Positions 2,010 to 60,200 of a stretch of 64,000 bases of DNA are shown here, piece after piece; the stretch's first letter is position 1, and each line of letters begins with the position of its first letter. A program made the translations under genes and the position numbers. The notes under the pieces are model-generated. The model saw only the letters and a program-made list of their open reading frames with translations, ran no database searches and was not told where the DNA came from. This stretch comes from Bactericera cockerelli (lineage: Eukaryota; Arthropoda; Insecta; Hemiptera; Triozidae): assembly GCA_024516035.1 (NCBI GenBank), contig CM044955.1:18346547-18410546 (forward strand), given 5' to 3'.

Positions 2010-34256
<32,247 letters not shown>

Positions 34257-42562: not shown

Positions 42563-42714
42563 GACCTCAGTAGCTTGATGGATAAGGCGGTGGACTTGTA
42601 ACCTGGAGGTCGGTAGTTCAAGTACCGGTTTCAGCGTGGATTTGGTAATGCGAGTTTGAGTAGTTGTTATATCACGAAAGTGATTAACACAAAATTGATA
42701 ACTTTTAACTTTTT
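42563..42714 (+). mobile_element. tRNA-derived SINE (family 2)
   Basis: CAGACCTCAGTAGCTTGATG, GGAGGTCGGTAGTTCAAGTA and AAGTGATTAACACAAAATTG match the other copies. It follows a family 3 SINE by about 40 nt. Confidence 0.75.
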
Positions 42715-43298
42715 AACTTAAAACTTAGATAGCAGACTTGGTTGGAATGCAAGTGATCCGGGTTCGAATGCTGTCGCAAACCACTCAACTATATCGATGC
42801 ATGAAGAATTTTTTTTTGTTTGAGGCCCAACACCATCCCTCCCATAAACTGCCTTTGTCCGCCCCTGAATCCTGAAGGAAGATACGTCAACCATCACGTT
42901 TTTATTTCTTTACGACCCTTCCTACCCTTAGAAATGTACTTCATTAACTTGATTGAATTTCATGGTGTTCCAATGTTCAACTTTTTCCGAGGACCAAAGT
43001 TATTGTGGATTCCGCTTTCGATATAAACAATTGCTTTCTAATGGAAAAGTGGTGAAATAAATAGAAACGCCTCTTAATTAACGACTCATAACTCACAAGT
43101 TCGTCGTCGTATGACTAGAAAACTGTGATAAATGTTGTAGTATACTAACAAAGATCCTCTGTTGCTCTATAAATGATACATACAAAACCTTCACTACATT
43201 CTATGAATAATCAATGACCTTATTTATACCGCCTGATGAGGAATTTTCCATTTTTCCAGCAGTATTTTGGTTGCCAATAATTAGTGGTCATGTGTATA

Positions 43299-43472
43299 TC
43301 ACTTTTCTACTTATACTGATTCAAATAGAGAGGTTAGTTGATGGCATGAATATACAGAACTATTACCTGCTGATGAGAGCAAACAAGCTCGAAACAGCTG
43401 TCCACTGTCCAGGTATGTTCTGATATTCATATACATCTAGTAAAACTTCTCACTTATTTTCTTTTATACTGA
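43299..43472 (+). mobile_element. Retrozyme-like unit carrying hammerhead copy 1
   Basis: It shares the same order as the 52-kb copy: TCACTTTTCTACTTATACTG at 43299, AATAGAGAGGTTAGTTG, the hammerhead, ATATTCATATACATCTAGTA, then a diverged repeat of the start at 43450 (period 151 nt). It is more diverged than the 52-kb copy. Confidence 0.65.
43355..43422 (+). ncRNA. Type I hammerhead ribozyme motif, copy 1
   Basis: Stem I: CAGAAC (43355-43360) pairs with GTTCTG (43417-43422) and TACCTG (43364-43369) with CAGGTA (43410-43415), separated by a small internal loop (TAT/T). The core CTGATGA is 43370-43376. Stem II is GAGC/GCTC with loop AAACAA (43377-43390). GAA follows at 43391-43393. Stem III can form as ACAG (43394-43397) with CTGT (43405-43408), and C43409 is the predicted cleavage nucleotide in GTC. 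Compared with copy 2 it carries 7 extra nt that lengthen stem III from 2 to 4 bp. All invariant core bases are present. Confidence 0.85.
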
Positions 43473-44637
43473 CGTTTATACACATTATACTGACCGACTC
43501 TTGAGAGAACAAGCAATCAATGCATTGAGTGGGATTCGTAACTACAAATACATCAGTGATGTTGATATTGATGATGTGCTACCTGGATTACCAATCTCAC
43601 GACCACTCGACCACTATACATAAAGGTGGTCATTACGTGCGCGTAACAGATATCCTAGTTCTTATTTCCAAAAATTATCTTGGTTAAGTCGAACTGTTTA
43701 TATTAGAACCCAAGGTACAGAGCAAAAAGGCTACTATAAAGAGGTTTCTAATATAGCCACTTCTCTATTACTGTACCAGTGTACCTACATAAACAGGTGA
43801 CGCAGGGACCTGAGATTTTCTCCATTATAAAGAGTTTTCTATTATATCCGTGTCCATTATCAATTATCAAATCGTATATAAATATTGATACGTATGAAAA
43901 GGTTTTTTTTTCTCCTGATTGGTCAGCAGTACCAAATCATCTGCATACAGTAACGCTTTTATATTATGAGTTTGATTTTTTTTTTACAACAAGATTTTAT
44001 TGATATAATTTTTTTTTCAATGTTTAACAACTTTCAAATACTAAGATTCCCGCCCCATCTTCACATTAATTCAACACCCCGCACTTTTTTCCTCATCCCC
44101 CTCATTCTTATTGACACGGCTCTGATAGTAGTCTTATTGACACGGCTCTGATAATCTGATACGTATACAAAGGTCACCACTTGCAATCGTGTGTGTGACA
44201 CTGACCAAGTTTTCCAAACACCTTATCTCTCTGGTATCAAATTCCACTTTCACATTGAACTTGAACTTCAAATACTATTATCATGTTTGTATGGAAGTCG
44301 TACCCAGTACCCACAGATTAGAGGTCTACTTCTCAACAAATAGTGGTCCTTCGATAGTGGAAATCGAGTAGAACAGTGGGTAAATAAAAGCTGTAAATAT
44401 GAACAAACATTGTGAAAGTAAACCATTCGATATCACTTTTAACTTATCATTTCAACAACTTCTCATTTTTCTATGGCTTTTTCCGTTCACAAGGGTATCG
44501 ACATTTTATGCTAGAGTACTGGACTCAGCAAGCTACAAACTACATAAATTTGTATTGTGAACTCTCAAGAGGCCAGCCCGGGTATTGCTAGGGTCCACTG
44601 AATTTGTAGTATACCAGCAGAACCACTGTTTGATGTT

Positions 44638-51947: not shown

Positions 51948-52121
51948 CTCACTTTTCTGTTTATACTGATTAGTGATTAAAATAGAGAGGTTAGTTGGTG
52001 ACATGGATATTCAGAACTATTACCTGCTGATGAGAGCAAATAAGCTCGAAACAGCTGTCCAGGTATGTTCTGATATTCATATACATCTAGTACAACTTCT
52101 CACTTTTCTGTTTATACTGAT
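51948..52121 (+). mobile_element. Retrozyme-like unit carrying hammerhead copy 2
   Basis: A perfect 23-nt direct repeat, starting CTCACTTTTCTG and ending TTTATACTGAT, occurs at 51948-51970 and 52099-52121, a period of 151 nt. One hammerhead lies in between. This is what a self-cleaving tandem-repeat element (one monomer plus a partial second) would leave. No protein-coding part is present. Confidence 0.7.
52012..52072 (+). ncRNA. Type I hammerhead ribozyme motif, copy 2 (minimal stem III)
   Basis: Stem I: CAGAAC (52012-52017) with GTTCTG (52067-52072) and TACCTG (52021-52026) with CAGGTA (52060-52065), internal loop TAT/T. The core CTGATGA is 52027-52033. Stem II is GAGC/GCTC with loop AAATAA (52034-52047). 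GAA is 52048-52050. Stem III has only two pairs, AC with GT around loop AGCT (52051-52058), and C52059 is the cleavage nucleotide. Short-stem-III type I hammerheads are known from Penelope-like elements and animal retrozymes. Confidence 0.9.
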
Positions 52122-52131
52122 ATACTGACAC

Positions 52132-55430: not shown

Positions 55431-55781
55431 CTACTTGGGGATCGAACCCATGAACTCTAGCACTGAACTATGGGCAGGCGAGCGCTTGACATCAATAGCA
55501 AAACAAATAATCATGTACATTTAAGGATAATGGCAAGAATAGGTCTTTCCTATAAGATTGTTGAACCACATGTGTAATTTATTGTGATAAGGTGGGACAG
55601 CTGACACATGTACTAGTACCTACTATGATGAACAAAATAGCTTAAGAAGTCTACCGACAAATACTGCCCAATAGTAGTGATAAATTGATAATATTAATGC
55701 GCGTGTAGTTTCCTTGTCGTGTGCAAAATACCAACATTGACAACATAAGTGTTCCTGGGTATTTTTATTTTAAAAGTTAAT

Positions 55782-55950
55782 TGTGCCCCGGAACAGATTT
55801 CGCATTACTTCAGGGTACTTTACCTCTAAATCCATGCCATTCCGTAAGCGAAAAAACTCGGTTGGAATTTTCCGCTCCGGCCGGGATTCGAGCCAGCAAC
55901 CTTGGCATCAGCAATCAATGCTCTCAACCACTGAGCCATGGAGGTCGGCG
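55782..55950 (-). mobile_element. tRNA-derived SINE (family 4), second copy
   Basis: TGCCCCGGAACAGATTTCGC to CACTGAGCCATGGAGGTCGG matches the copy at 12695-12862 across its length, with scattered differences. Confidence 0.8.
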
Positions 55951-57034: not shown

Positions 57035-57270
57035 TTAGAGTACAATATTGGAAACAATTCCCGGATCCGGAATATTGTTGAGGTTGTCCCCCAGACCCCA
57101 GTAGTAGACAGGTGGGCCCTCTGAGAAGCAATACTTGGTCTCGAGGGGCGACGCGTGCTCCACCCAGTACATGAGGTAGAAGTTGCACATCTCATCCCGA
57201 CCCGTGCTGCCCACGTAAGTCTCCCGGCTCCGGAAGTTCTTCATCACGCACCGAGCCGCCATCACGTCCC
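57035..57270 (-). CDS. Phm: PHM last exon with the CuM methionine and stop codon
   Basis: The exon encodes GDVMAARCVMKNFRSRETYV, then GSTGRDEMCNFYLMYWVEHA and SPLETKYCFSEGPPVYYWGL, ending GDNLNNIPDPGIVSNIVL and TAA. The Met of DEMCN is the third CuM ligand. The tail YYW...NIPD is typical of insect PHM ends. The acceptor is TTGCAG/GG. The last codons and the TAA lie in sequence resembling a unit of the downstream 73-bp minisatellite. Confidence 0.93.
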
Positions 57271-60200
57271 CTGCAACACAACCAGGGGGCCAGGTGAGAT
57301 CTGTGTTATATTCTTCAGATAAAGCTTTTCTTTGCTCTAGGAATATTTTAATCTTGCCGGTTTGGTTTAAATTGGGAAAGTTTACCTTTATCGAACAGGG
57401 GATATCTTTGTTATATCTTGACATAAAGCTTTGCTTTGGTCGAGGAATATTTTAATCTTGCCGGTTTGGTTTAGATTGGGAAAGTTTACCTTTATAATGC
57501 AAAACTACAACATTTGAAGGTTGTATTTATGTTTAGTTTTAAGATAATTTTATCTCTCGTGAAACTATGTTTGCTCTAGAGGGAATTTCTCTCATGCTTT
57601 ATGTTGAGAGGTCTTAGCTTTCCGTTTAGAGTTATGTCTGTATCAACATTTTCGAAGGATTTTTCTTCATCTTGAGAAATAGTTTTTATCTCGGAAAGTC
57701 TATGCTTTATCTTGGAGGATTATGTACGATAATGCGACTCGTATATCTTGTGAGCGAAATCGTAGGGCTCGTGTTTAATTGTGTATCAAGAAGATTGAAA
57801 TTACCTTTATCCGCTATTCTGGGTCAAAATTATTCTTTTCAGCGGGAATTAAGGAACTATCAATTTTGTGAATTGGAAGTTATTTTAAAGATATAAAGAT
57901 AAAGTGCTAATTATTTGTATTATTATGTCACAATTTATTGGAAGTTATTTTGGGAGATATTATTATTATGTATATTAGGAAGAAAATGCTCCACACATAA
58001 ATCCCGTCTAATAACTAGAAATTTTTAATTCTGTGTTTCATTTAGGAATAGTAAAGTTGATAACTTAATATTACTTCGGAGAAATATCTAATATTAGAAA
58101 TCGGAGGTATTTCAAATCTAGGTTCGACTCTGAAAATACTATTTTCTTTTCTTCTATTTTTGATATAAATGTGTTTATGTACTAGGAATATTCTAATCGT
58201 GCAATAGTTATATCTTCTTCTTTCATTCTGTCTCATCCCGCTTAAGCAGGGTCGACGTGTTCAACCTCATGGTTGAGGTTGGTTGGTTGGCACATTTTTT
58301 ACAGCTGGATGCCCTTCCTAACGCCAACGATTCTATTTTGATTTAAGGTCCTGGATTAGGACGTGGGTTTTACCCTCCATTCGCTGGGAATCGTTCCAGT
58401 TACCCACATTAACCTCACCCAGCCTGGGTAGAGCCGAAAAGTTATATAAATGCAATTAATTGGGACGGGCACAGATCTACATATTTATGATAACCGACCT
58501 CAGTAGCTTGTTCGATAGGGCAGCGGACTTGTAACCTGGAGGTCGGTGGTTCAAGTACCGGTTTAAGCGTGGATTTAATAAAGCGAGTTTGAGTAGTTGT
58601 GATAACACGAAAGTGATTAACACAAACATGATAACTTTTTTTTATATATTTATGATAACACGGAGTATGTAACTTACCTTTATGTATGGTTACGTTTGCT
58701 TCAACAGGATAGAACATCTGAGGAGTCAGAGGATCCCGCTTGCCCAGTAGAATCCACTCATCCTTCAAGTTGTAGTCGTTCTTCTTCTTCACCACGTAGC
58801 CTTGCACCTCCTTGCCTGCAAGATAGATATCACGATACTGGAGACACACAGACTCTAGACATTGGATCTGGGCGTCCATACAACCGTTACACCACCTTGT
58901 TCACATATTGGTTAGCTCCTCAAACACATGGAAAGTAGTTAACTAAAGTTTCAGTAAGGATTACTTTTCACTGCCTGACTGATTTAATCGTAAATCGAAC
59001 CGTATAATCCGTAAATCGTGTAAAACCGTAAATCGTATGATCGAACATTAGCCATTTGATTGGGTGTCCAGTTGTTTTTATTTACATTTATCTGATAGCA
59101 ACTATGCAATTATTGGACGTAAAATGTATGGAATTCAACTGCCCACAAAATGAATGACAGGCTATGATTCCAGTTGACATTTCCCATGCATAGTCGGAAA
59201 GGTTTTAGTCGGTAGGAGATCATTATCTAGCAAACTTCGGTGATGGATTTGAAAAGAAGAGCTTAAGTACATCTGTTACAGAAACGGGTTTAAGGCTGAA
59301 TTGAAGCTTACCTAGCGCATGCGTGTGGGTTCGATACGCAAAGGGATGGATATCCTTGTCCTCCATCATGATGCAAGAGGTCTCCATATTCTCCACGGAC
59401 TGGGCTGGAATCTTCCCGCCAGTGCCCAGAAGTAGAACCCCCGCCTCTTTCGTAAGTCTGGAAGTTCAAGATGAAATGAAATGTTACCGAACGTCGCGGG
59501 TTTGATAAATATGTATTGTTCAAAATATGTATTCTTGTTCTACCTGTAAATATGTATTCTTGTTCTAAATATGTATACGTATTATTTTCACTTATCAGCT
59601 GTTGCACATAGAAATATGTGGTTCAGGACGAGCCAATTTTGAATTAAAGTTGGCTGGAGACCATCACTCACCCCTTCACCTGTAGCTAAGCTGGCTACAA
59701 CAACAACAACAACAAGAGTGTTTACTAGAGATGGTGAAATTAACAGATAAAAACAGAGGGCAGCACATGGGAAGGGTTGGGTGGAAGAGATTGTCATAGA
59801 CAATAACCCCGCCTTTTAGTTAGGGCATTTATGTATATGGAGGGGTGAGAAACATAGTGGTGTAAGTCCAAAAAAAATTAAAAATGGGTTCATGTTAAAA
59901 ACTATTATGTTAAAAACATTTTATAAGCGATATTATCGCTTATAAAATGGGTATATATACAGGGTGTCCCACCAAACTTGGACACCTCAAATTACTCGGC
60001 CCCTGAAAGAGTTTTTCAAAAATAAAAAAATCTAGGGTACATGTGCTAATTATGCGGTTTCAGTTATGAAATTTTTTTTATACAGGGTGGTTCAAAAGTC
60101 AGAAATTGAGGTGTCAACTTTCGATGTTTAAATGGATCGACCTGAATTTTATTTGATAATTTTACTTCTAAATGATTCCTGAGTACTTTTTTAAACAAAA

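Follow-up and report, generated by a model that had tools for sequence, protein, structure and literature searches.

Features of the window

The 64,000-nt stretch of the Bactericera cockerelli genome analysed here (the window) carries a non-LTR reverse transcriptase with relatives in other psyllids, two exon-like pieces of a copper monooxygenase and two copies of a short repeat that contains a hammerhead motif (Table 1). In a comparison with solved structures, the piece at 57035-57451 resembles peptidylglycine alpha-amidating monooxygenase. The first-pass annotation had placed the hammerhead motif on the strand opposite to two genes; this is correct for the monooxygenase gene, while a second gene was not identified.

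A number of smaller repeats and structured stretches are also present. Two regions are 5S rRNA-like (33944-34064, 36.2 bits; 1026-1107, 29.3 bits; Rfam cut-off 38), probably 5S-derived SINEs, as the latter has relatives elsewhere in the window. A tRNA-like stretch on the minus strand (12788-12856) scores 30.4 bits, just above the Rfam cut-off; it is not called by ARAGORN, which finds no tRNA in the window, and its relative at 55772-55949 suggests a SINE. The repeat at 42563-42705, tRNA-like by eye, has five further window copies at 83-92% identity. Directly 3' of the first copy of the hammerhead repeat lies a MITE-like pair of perfect 16-nt inverted repeats (52142-52157/52276-52291, 118 nt apart), present as a single copy in the window, and a 23-nt inverted repeat (52473-52495/52589-52611, 93 nt apart) is 96% complementary.

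Table 1. Coordinates of the features of the window and the evidence for each.
Feature	Position	Strand	Basis
Copy 1 of the element, made up of a 151-nt unit and 23 nt of the next; 1.16 typical units	51948-52121	+	Direct repeat, profile match, circular-unit fit
23-nt repeat, 5' copy	51948-51970	+	Direct repeat
Complete hammerhead motif, including the outer helix of stem I	52005-52078	+	Covariance match, descriptor, layout
Palindrome ACAGCTGT: 2-bp stem III closing AGCT, or one half of the 8-bp stem III of a dimer	52051-52058	+	
Predicted cleavage junction, C52059 / C52060	52059-52060	+	Position after the core by hammerhead alignment
23-nt repeat, 3' copy, ending in the tail	52099-52121	+	Direct repeat
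Tail TATACTGA followed by one microrepeat of the tail	52113-52128	+	Doubled motif
Copy 2 of the element, 1.15 units	43298-43475	+	Alignment, profile match, circular-unit fit
Hammerhead motif of copy 2	43348-43428	+	RF02275 below cut-off, descriptor
Stem III of copy 2, 4 bp	43394-43408	+	Widened by a 7-nt tandem duplication
Non-LTR reverse transcriptase	24781-27093		Best named protein relatives in the psyllids Diaphorina citri (63% identity) and Cyamophila willieti (58-67%); top match 64%
Copper type II monooxygenase, exon-like pieces	57035-57451 and 58442-58900	-	Pfam PF03712

Architecture of the hammerhead motif

By sequence and predicted structure, the motif at 52012-52072 belongs to the type I hammerheads and has a stem III of 2 bp. 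The motif contains the conserved core positions of the hammerhead, given in the available part of PMC3088659 as C3 U4 G5 A6 N7 G8 A9, G12 A13 A14, A15.1-U16.1 and H17, and both descriptor and layout place three helices around them, with stem I open-ended. CTGATGA occupies 52027-52033 and GAA 52048-52050; stem II (GAGC/GCTC, 52034-52037/52044-52047) is closed by the hexaloop AAATAA, and stem III (AC/GT, 52051-52052/52057-52058) closes AGCT ahead of the predicted cleavage nucleotide, C52059. The first-pass annotation had listed each of these elements, and all lie at the positions it gave. It had likewise described stem I as two 6-bp helices split by an internal loop, and we find TACCTG/CAGGTA and CAGAAC/GTTCTG flanking an internal loop TAT/T exactly there; an additional helix (52005-52010/52073-52078) extends the structure beyond the 61 nt originally delimited. 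The assignment to type I with a 2-bp stem III stands, but the epithet "minimal" was misleading, because stem I is long and carries the canonical type I internal loop, unlike that of the minimal Penelope-like hammerheads as they appear in the available text of PMC6155905 and PMC7761336.

A descriptor requiring the core, a 5-bp stem I, a stem II of at least 3 bp and a stem III of at least 2 bp, run on both strands, matched exactly two loci in the window (52012-52072 and 43348-43428) and nothing in 300 dinucleotide shuffles, in agreement with the original judgement that a chance origin was very unlikely. The region 52008-52080 folds with a z-score of -4.87, none of 200 shuffles being equally stable, although its minimum-energy fold is not the hammerhead. 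No hammerhead family exceeded its gathering threshold in an Rfam scan of the window, and RF00163 gave nothing over its cut-off in the window copies, which do not reach Rfam's curated score. The best covariance match to copy 1, spanning the whole model, was to RF02275 (Hammerhead_HH9), at 34.2 bits against a gathering threshold of 52 (E=1.4e-6 in 1.1 kb, 8e-5 over the window); the hammerhead of copy 2 scored 32.3 bits with the same model, also under the cut-off. The covariance-model check that the first-pass annotation had proposed therefore gave no match at gathering thresholds and a match to RF02275 by E-value. The lack of a gathering-level match for copy 1 is what a chance resemblance to the hammerhead consensus would have in its favour; we give that explanation practically no credence, as it is ruled out by the empty shuffles and by the membership of the motif in a genomic repeat family for which reversed control patterns have no match.

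The hammerhead lies in a short, dispersed repeat

The typical unit of the repeat, which we call the element, is 144 nt long, and the 151-nt unit of copy 1 has 7 extra nucleotides. The two window copies align at 85% (51949-52120 against 43299-43472); a profile built from them finds no further copy in the window, and the sequences that flank the two are unrelated. The 23-nt sequence that is repeated at the ends of copy 1 was considered as a target duplication and rejected, being common to separate insertions; as it is present in altered form in other insertions and at both ends of copy 2, it is part of the element. The doubled tail motif has a single match in the window and none in 100 shuffles. 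No open reading frame of at least 75 aa lies over the element, and Rfam scans revealed no tRNA or 5S head in the element family. The circular fold of the 151-nt unit has a z-score of -3.0, although the most stable of 200 shuffles surpasses it.

Searches of the 565 Mb assembly (1032 contigs) show that the 52012-52072 hammerhead forms the centre of a non-coding repeat that is dispersed in thousands of copies. The exact core pattern CTGATGAGNNCNAANAAGNNCGAAACNNNNGTC has 2572 genome matches (1331+1241; reversed control 0+0), a count that reaches beyond the element family, three rows with the stem II of a second family (family B, below) being among the matches listed. The 34-nt 3' end is matched exactly at 816+864 places (reversed control 0+0), and a DNA search with the element, in which 40 of 805 candidates were scored, returned at least 55 match rows. 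A genome search with the HH9 model gave at least 16 matches at E<=0.001, none above the cut-off; this is a lower bound, since 58 of 29466 candidates were scored, and the same search found no match in any of 14 control genomes. The exact patterns had no match in viral or prokaryote contigs. With a looser pattern, four viral contigs (L001, L002, L003, L004) contain hammerhead-like cores; only L001 reaches the Rfam Hammerhead_1 cut-off, and none is related to the element as far as seen.

Insertions share a fixed 3' tail and differ at the 5' end

Insertion ends were placed on the 144-nt circular unit in three sets of loci, which overlap (for example L068 and L096, L074 and L099, L062 and L084). 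Set 1 comprised 45 loci (the two window copies, L006, L018, L019 and L026-L065), from which three were dropped for a shared 5' flank (n=42). Its 3' ends fall at the TATACTGA tail, at position 136-140 of the unit, in 41 of 42 insertions (L065 ends at 130), while the 5' ends are spread over positions 24-125. Lengths range from 1.10 to 2.52 units and exceed one unit in 42/42, in a set where short copies are disfavoured because most loci were ranked by similarity to the 1.16-unit query. The 5' ends of L019, L037, L038 and L041 may have been called too late, as the sequence upstream of them is still element-like.

Set 2 was taken from the first 30 core-pattern loci by position, a choice that needs an intact core; four were dropped for identical 5' flanks and one belonged to family B (n=25). 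The 3' end lies at 135-140 in 23/25, and the remaining two, L073 and L077, align 11 nt further and have their 3' flank in common. Twenty of the 25 exceed one unit (range 0.68-3.22) and five are shorter. Set 3 consisted of 20 fetched places chosen by the tail pattern alone, in position order, with the duplicate-looking pairs L113/L114 and L103/L104 kept. Here the 3' end is at 138-142 in 19/20 (L110 reaches the end of the fetched stretch); ten exceed one unit, four lie between 0.43 and 1, and six are at or below 0.43, no longer than the distance from tail to cleavage site, these proportions being biased to long insertions because one with two exact tails has two chances of being drawn. The proposition that every insertion exceeds one unit is true of the similarity-ranked set 1 and false in sets 2 and 3. 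Tandem insertions of at least two units number 3/42 in set 1 and 2/25 in set 2, the others being at most 1.78 units.

Microrepeats of the tail, by a loose pattern, follow it in 34/42 of set 1. Across 256 kb of fetched loci, chosen for the element or family B, there are 40 doubled tails, all of them after an element tail. No TATACTGA-type tail was found downstream of the LINE within the window. The 5' flanks of L032, L040, L042, L046 and L053 adjoin (TAA)n or (ATT)n-like runs, L040 and L042 having similar 3' flanks; a target preference for such runs is possible.

For metazoan non-LTR retrozymes the criterion is that target duplications, where present, are longer than 4 bp. In set 1 the longest word common to both flanks averaged 5.9 nt, compared with 4.9 nt when flanks were randomly re-paired (0/200 re-pairings as high), and words of at least 8 nt occurred in 3/42 insertions, the re-paired flanks yielding 1.1 on average and at most 5. 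One insertion, L092, lies inside a 5S-like repeat whose uninterrupted relative at window position 1172 provides a single empty site, by which 0-1 nt was duplicated. There is no clear target duplication in the insertions examined; a short one may exist.

State of the ribozyme and predicted dimerization

The palindrome ACAGCTGT forms stem and loop III in all 43 of the hammerheads matched in 41 of the 42 set 1 insertions, copy 2 being the exception, an identity to be read with the youth and close resemblance of these high-similarity copies in mind. In two of the 43 a letter change in stem II breaks or weakens a pair, and one has a loop change. Among set 3 places, changes in and near the core comprise a C at position 7 (L100, L112), a longer loop II (L115) and cleavage-side changes (L106, L111); in L103 and L104 loop II is rearranged, with an extra self-complementary core stretch.

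Folding energies were calculated without tertiary contacts. For copy 1 the hammerhead fold lies at -20.4 kcal/mol and the predicted minimum at -26.4 kcal/mol (ensemble share of the hammerhead 8e-6), and for copy 2 at -24.3 and -25.8 kcal/mol (share 0.02). With its hammerhead fold 6 kcal/mol over the predicted minimum, the 61-nt RNA of copy 1 may cleave poorly on its own. By contrast, the dimeric hammerhead is the predicted minimum (-56.7) of the copy 1 homodimer, and in a modelled tandem transcript it is again the minimum, at -72.2 versus -56.8 when two monomeric hammerheads are enforced. No proper dimeric core is predicted when copy 2 is folded as a homodimer. The 2-bp stem III with its palindrome ACAGCTGT thus predicts, in these models, dimeric cleavage; this follows from the palindrome and is no proof, since 28/256 tetraloops yield the same dimeric fold.

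A second hammerhead family

Family B, present at L005, L006, L013, L015-L017 and L020-L024, has stem I GCCTAA/TTAGGC, stem II GTTC/GAAC and, as stem and loop III, the palindromic ACGATCGT. Of the eight loci scanned, four contain a total of nine hits over the RF00163 cut-off. For a homodimer of the one copy folded, the dimeric hammerhead was not predicted. Compared with the element (family A), its stems differ in a compensatory manner, 99.0% of 96 cells being paired, although this amounts to essentially one step (9 rows, 8 distinct) and homology of A and B is not established. Seven family B hammerheads lie in L013:2616-8550 at spacings of ~700-740 and ~1500 bp, possibly as a larger retrozyme-like array. 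In L016 and L023, A- and B-box-like words, resembling by eye the head of a tRNA-derived SINE, lie upstream of the family B hammerhead; Rfam reported no tRNA at E<=0.01 in L023 or in L006, which covers the place of L016.

Origin of the insertions

Taken together, these observations suggest, with a probability that we put at about 0.7, that the element is a non-coding retroelement of very small size and of the same kind as metazoan (non-LTR) retrozymes, whose insertions would arise by tail-started reverse transcription of circular or multimeric RNA. Transcripts of two or more units would self-cleave, probably in the form of hammerhead dimers paired at the palindromic stem III, and the unit-length RNA would be ligated into a circle. 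The reverse transcriptase of a resident retroelement would then start at the tail, at a broken target, and copying once round and a little further would leave an insertion of ~1.1-1.5 units. As the insertions frequently read through the cleavage junction into a second lap, the template must hold joined units, either a resealed circle or an uncleaved multimer. The palindromic stem III of family B also favours this explanation; against it stand the 10/20 tail-chosen places of at most one unit, the single-copy hammerhead fold, which is not the minimum, the failure of the family to give a hammerhead match at gathering threshold and, for dimeric action, the 28/256 tetraloops with the same fold and the improper core of the copy 2 homodimer.

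The same element could instead be copied from an uncleaved linear multimer produced by tandem read-through, with ribozyme and circles irrelevant to its mobility, which we consider unlikely but a serious contender. Such a template would equally explain the fixed 3' end and variable 5' ends, and it is in keeping with the insertions of two or more units (3/42, 2/25) and with the truncated copies (<1 unit in 5/25 of set 2, at most one unit in 10/20 of set 3). It would not lead one to expect insertions of 1.1-1.5 units to be common and those of two or more rare in all three sets, an argument weakened by two selected sets and by double-counted tails, and many copies retain an intact hammerhead core. 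In our judgement the many single insertions of 1.1-1.5 units, with few of two or more, are better fitted by a circle. The more specific reading, in which the insertions are the footprint left when a circular ribozyme RNA is reverse-transcribed from its one fixed tail, with a full turn across the resealed cleavage site, a short second lap and joining with almost no target duplication, is nevertheless tentative, and we hold it at somewhat below even odds.

It is quite improbable that the hammerhead is a passenger in a family that moves as an ordinary SINE-like element, with most ribozymes dead. The disfavoured hammerhead fold of single copies would suit such a history, as would the substitutions between the window copies, which are not clearly rarer in the hammerhead (3/74) than elsewhere (11/93; one-sided p 0.06). 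The exact core, however, has 2572 genome matches, all 43 hammerheads of the high-similarity set agree in stem III, albeit in copies that are young and closely similar, and no tRNA or 5S head was found in the family. Spread as DNA, for instance by satellite circles or a Helitron-like transposon, would accommodate both the scarcity of target duplication and the existence of some tandem copies, but DNA elements would carry two fixed ends; reverse transcription from a tail leaves one fixed, self-repeating end and one variable end, and nothing is shared between the flanks of the window copies. We regard this route as very improbable indeed.

If the footprint reading is true, the insertions would reveal the way in which animal retrozymes are mobilised, and the partner enzyme could be traced through the tail. 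According to the available text of PMC7761336, animal retrozyme repeats have no conserved motif pointing to a partner retrotransposon. Provided that the template is a circle, the TATACTGA tail would be a handle for finding the enzyme, and the element family would allow a sequence-level test of the retrozyme life cycle. The element also adds a hemipteran case of a palindromic stem III, with dimeric cleavage as the prediction.

Comparison with known systems

SINEs mobilised through a LINE-like 3' tail are dispersed, short, non-coding copies with a fixed self-repeating tail and variable 5' ends. The element resembles them in its dispersal, its fixed repeating tail and its variable 5' ends, and differs in that copies often exceed one unit and contain a ribozyme. 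The plant LTR retrozyme has a type III hammerhead in LTRs and a length of ~700 bp, whereas the element has a type I hammerhead, no LTR and a 144-nt unit. RF02275 (Hammerhead_HH9), which we take to represent a single amniote locus, is the best model match, but the score is far under the cut-off and the hammerhead here belongs to a repeat family.

The first-pass annotation had pointed to Penelope-like elements or animal retrozymes as the context of the motif, and the retrozyme-like alternative is the one that holds. Hammerheads of Penelope-like elements, as far as the accessible portions of PMC6155905 and PMC7761336 describe them, are likewise type I with a short stem III and linked to retroelements, but they are without helix III and loop-loop contacts, while the present one has a long stem I with an internal loop in a non-coding unit. 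The two window copies are not part of a Penelope-like element, since the unit ends within ~174 nt and the flanks are unrelated. A parallel in stem III is offered by HHR_Amex1/2 of newt and axolotl, in which helix III has one or two pairs and a tetraloop and is palindromic in Amex1 (PMC7229834, partial text). In the same text, the amphibian hammerheads whose palindromic helix III is weak are described as poorly active unless dimeric, cleaving far better as dimers; their repeats are 330-350 bp with other letters, and activity was measured there and is predicted here.

Metazoan non-LTR retrozymes are described in the available part of PMC7229834 as non-coding, low-GC repeats of ~150-450 bp with a type I hammerhead, insects being among the hosts, and circular unit-length RNAs are reported for them. 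The element shares with them the type I hammerhead and the many non-coding, low-GC copies, and no LTR is seen in it; some of its insertions are tandem (3/42 and 2/25 of two or more units), and its unit of 144-151 nt places it at the low edge of their size range. The element family is not described in the literature searched, which covered part of the published record. Its kind, that of the metazoan retrozymes, is already known; it is distinct from their descriptions, to the extent of the text available, in that the samples seen contain mostly single insertions of ~1.1-1.5 units and not long arrays, in its fixed TATACTGA tail with microrepeats and in having no clear or consistent target duplication.
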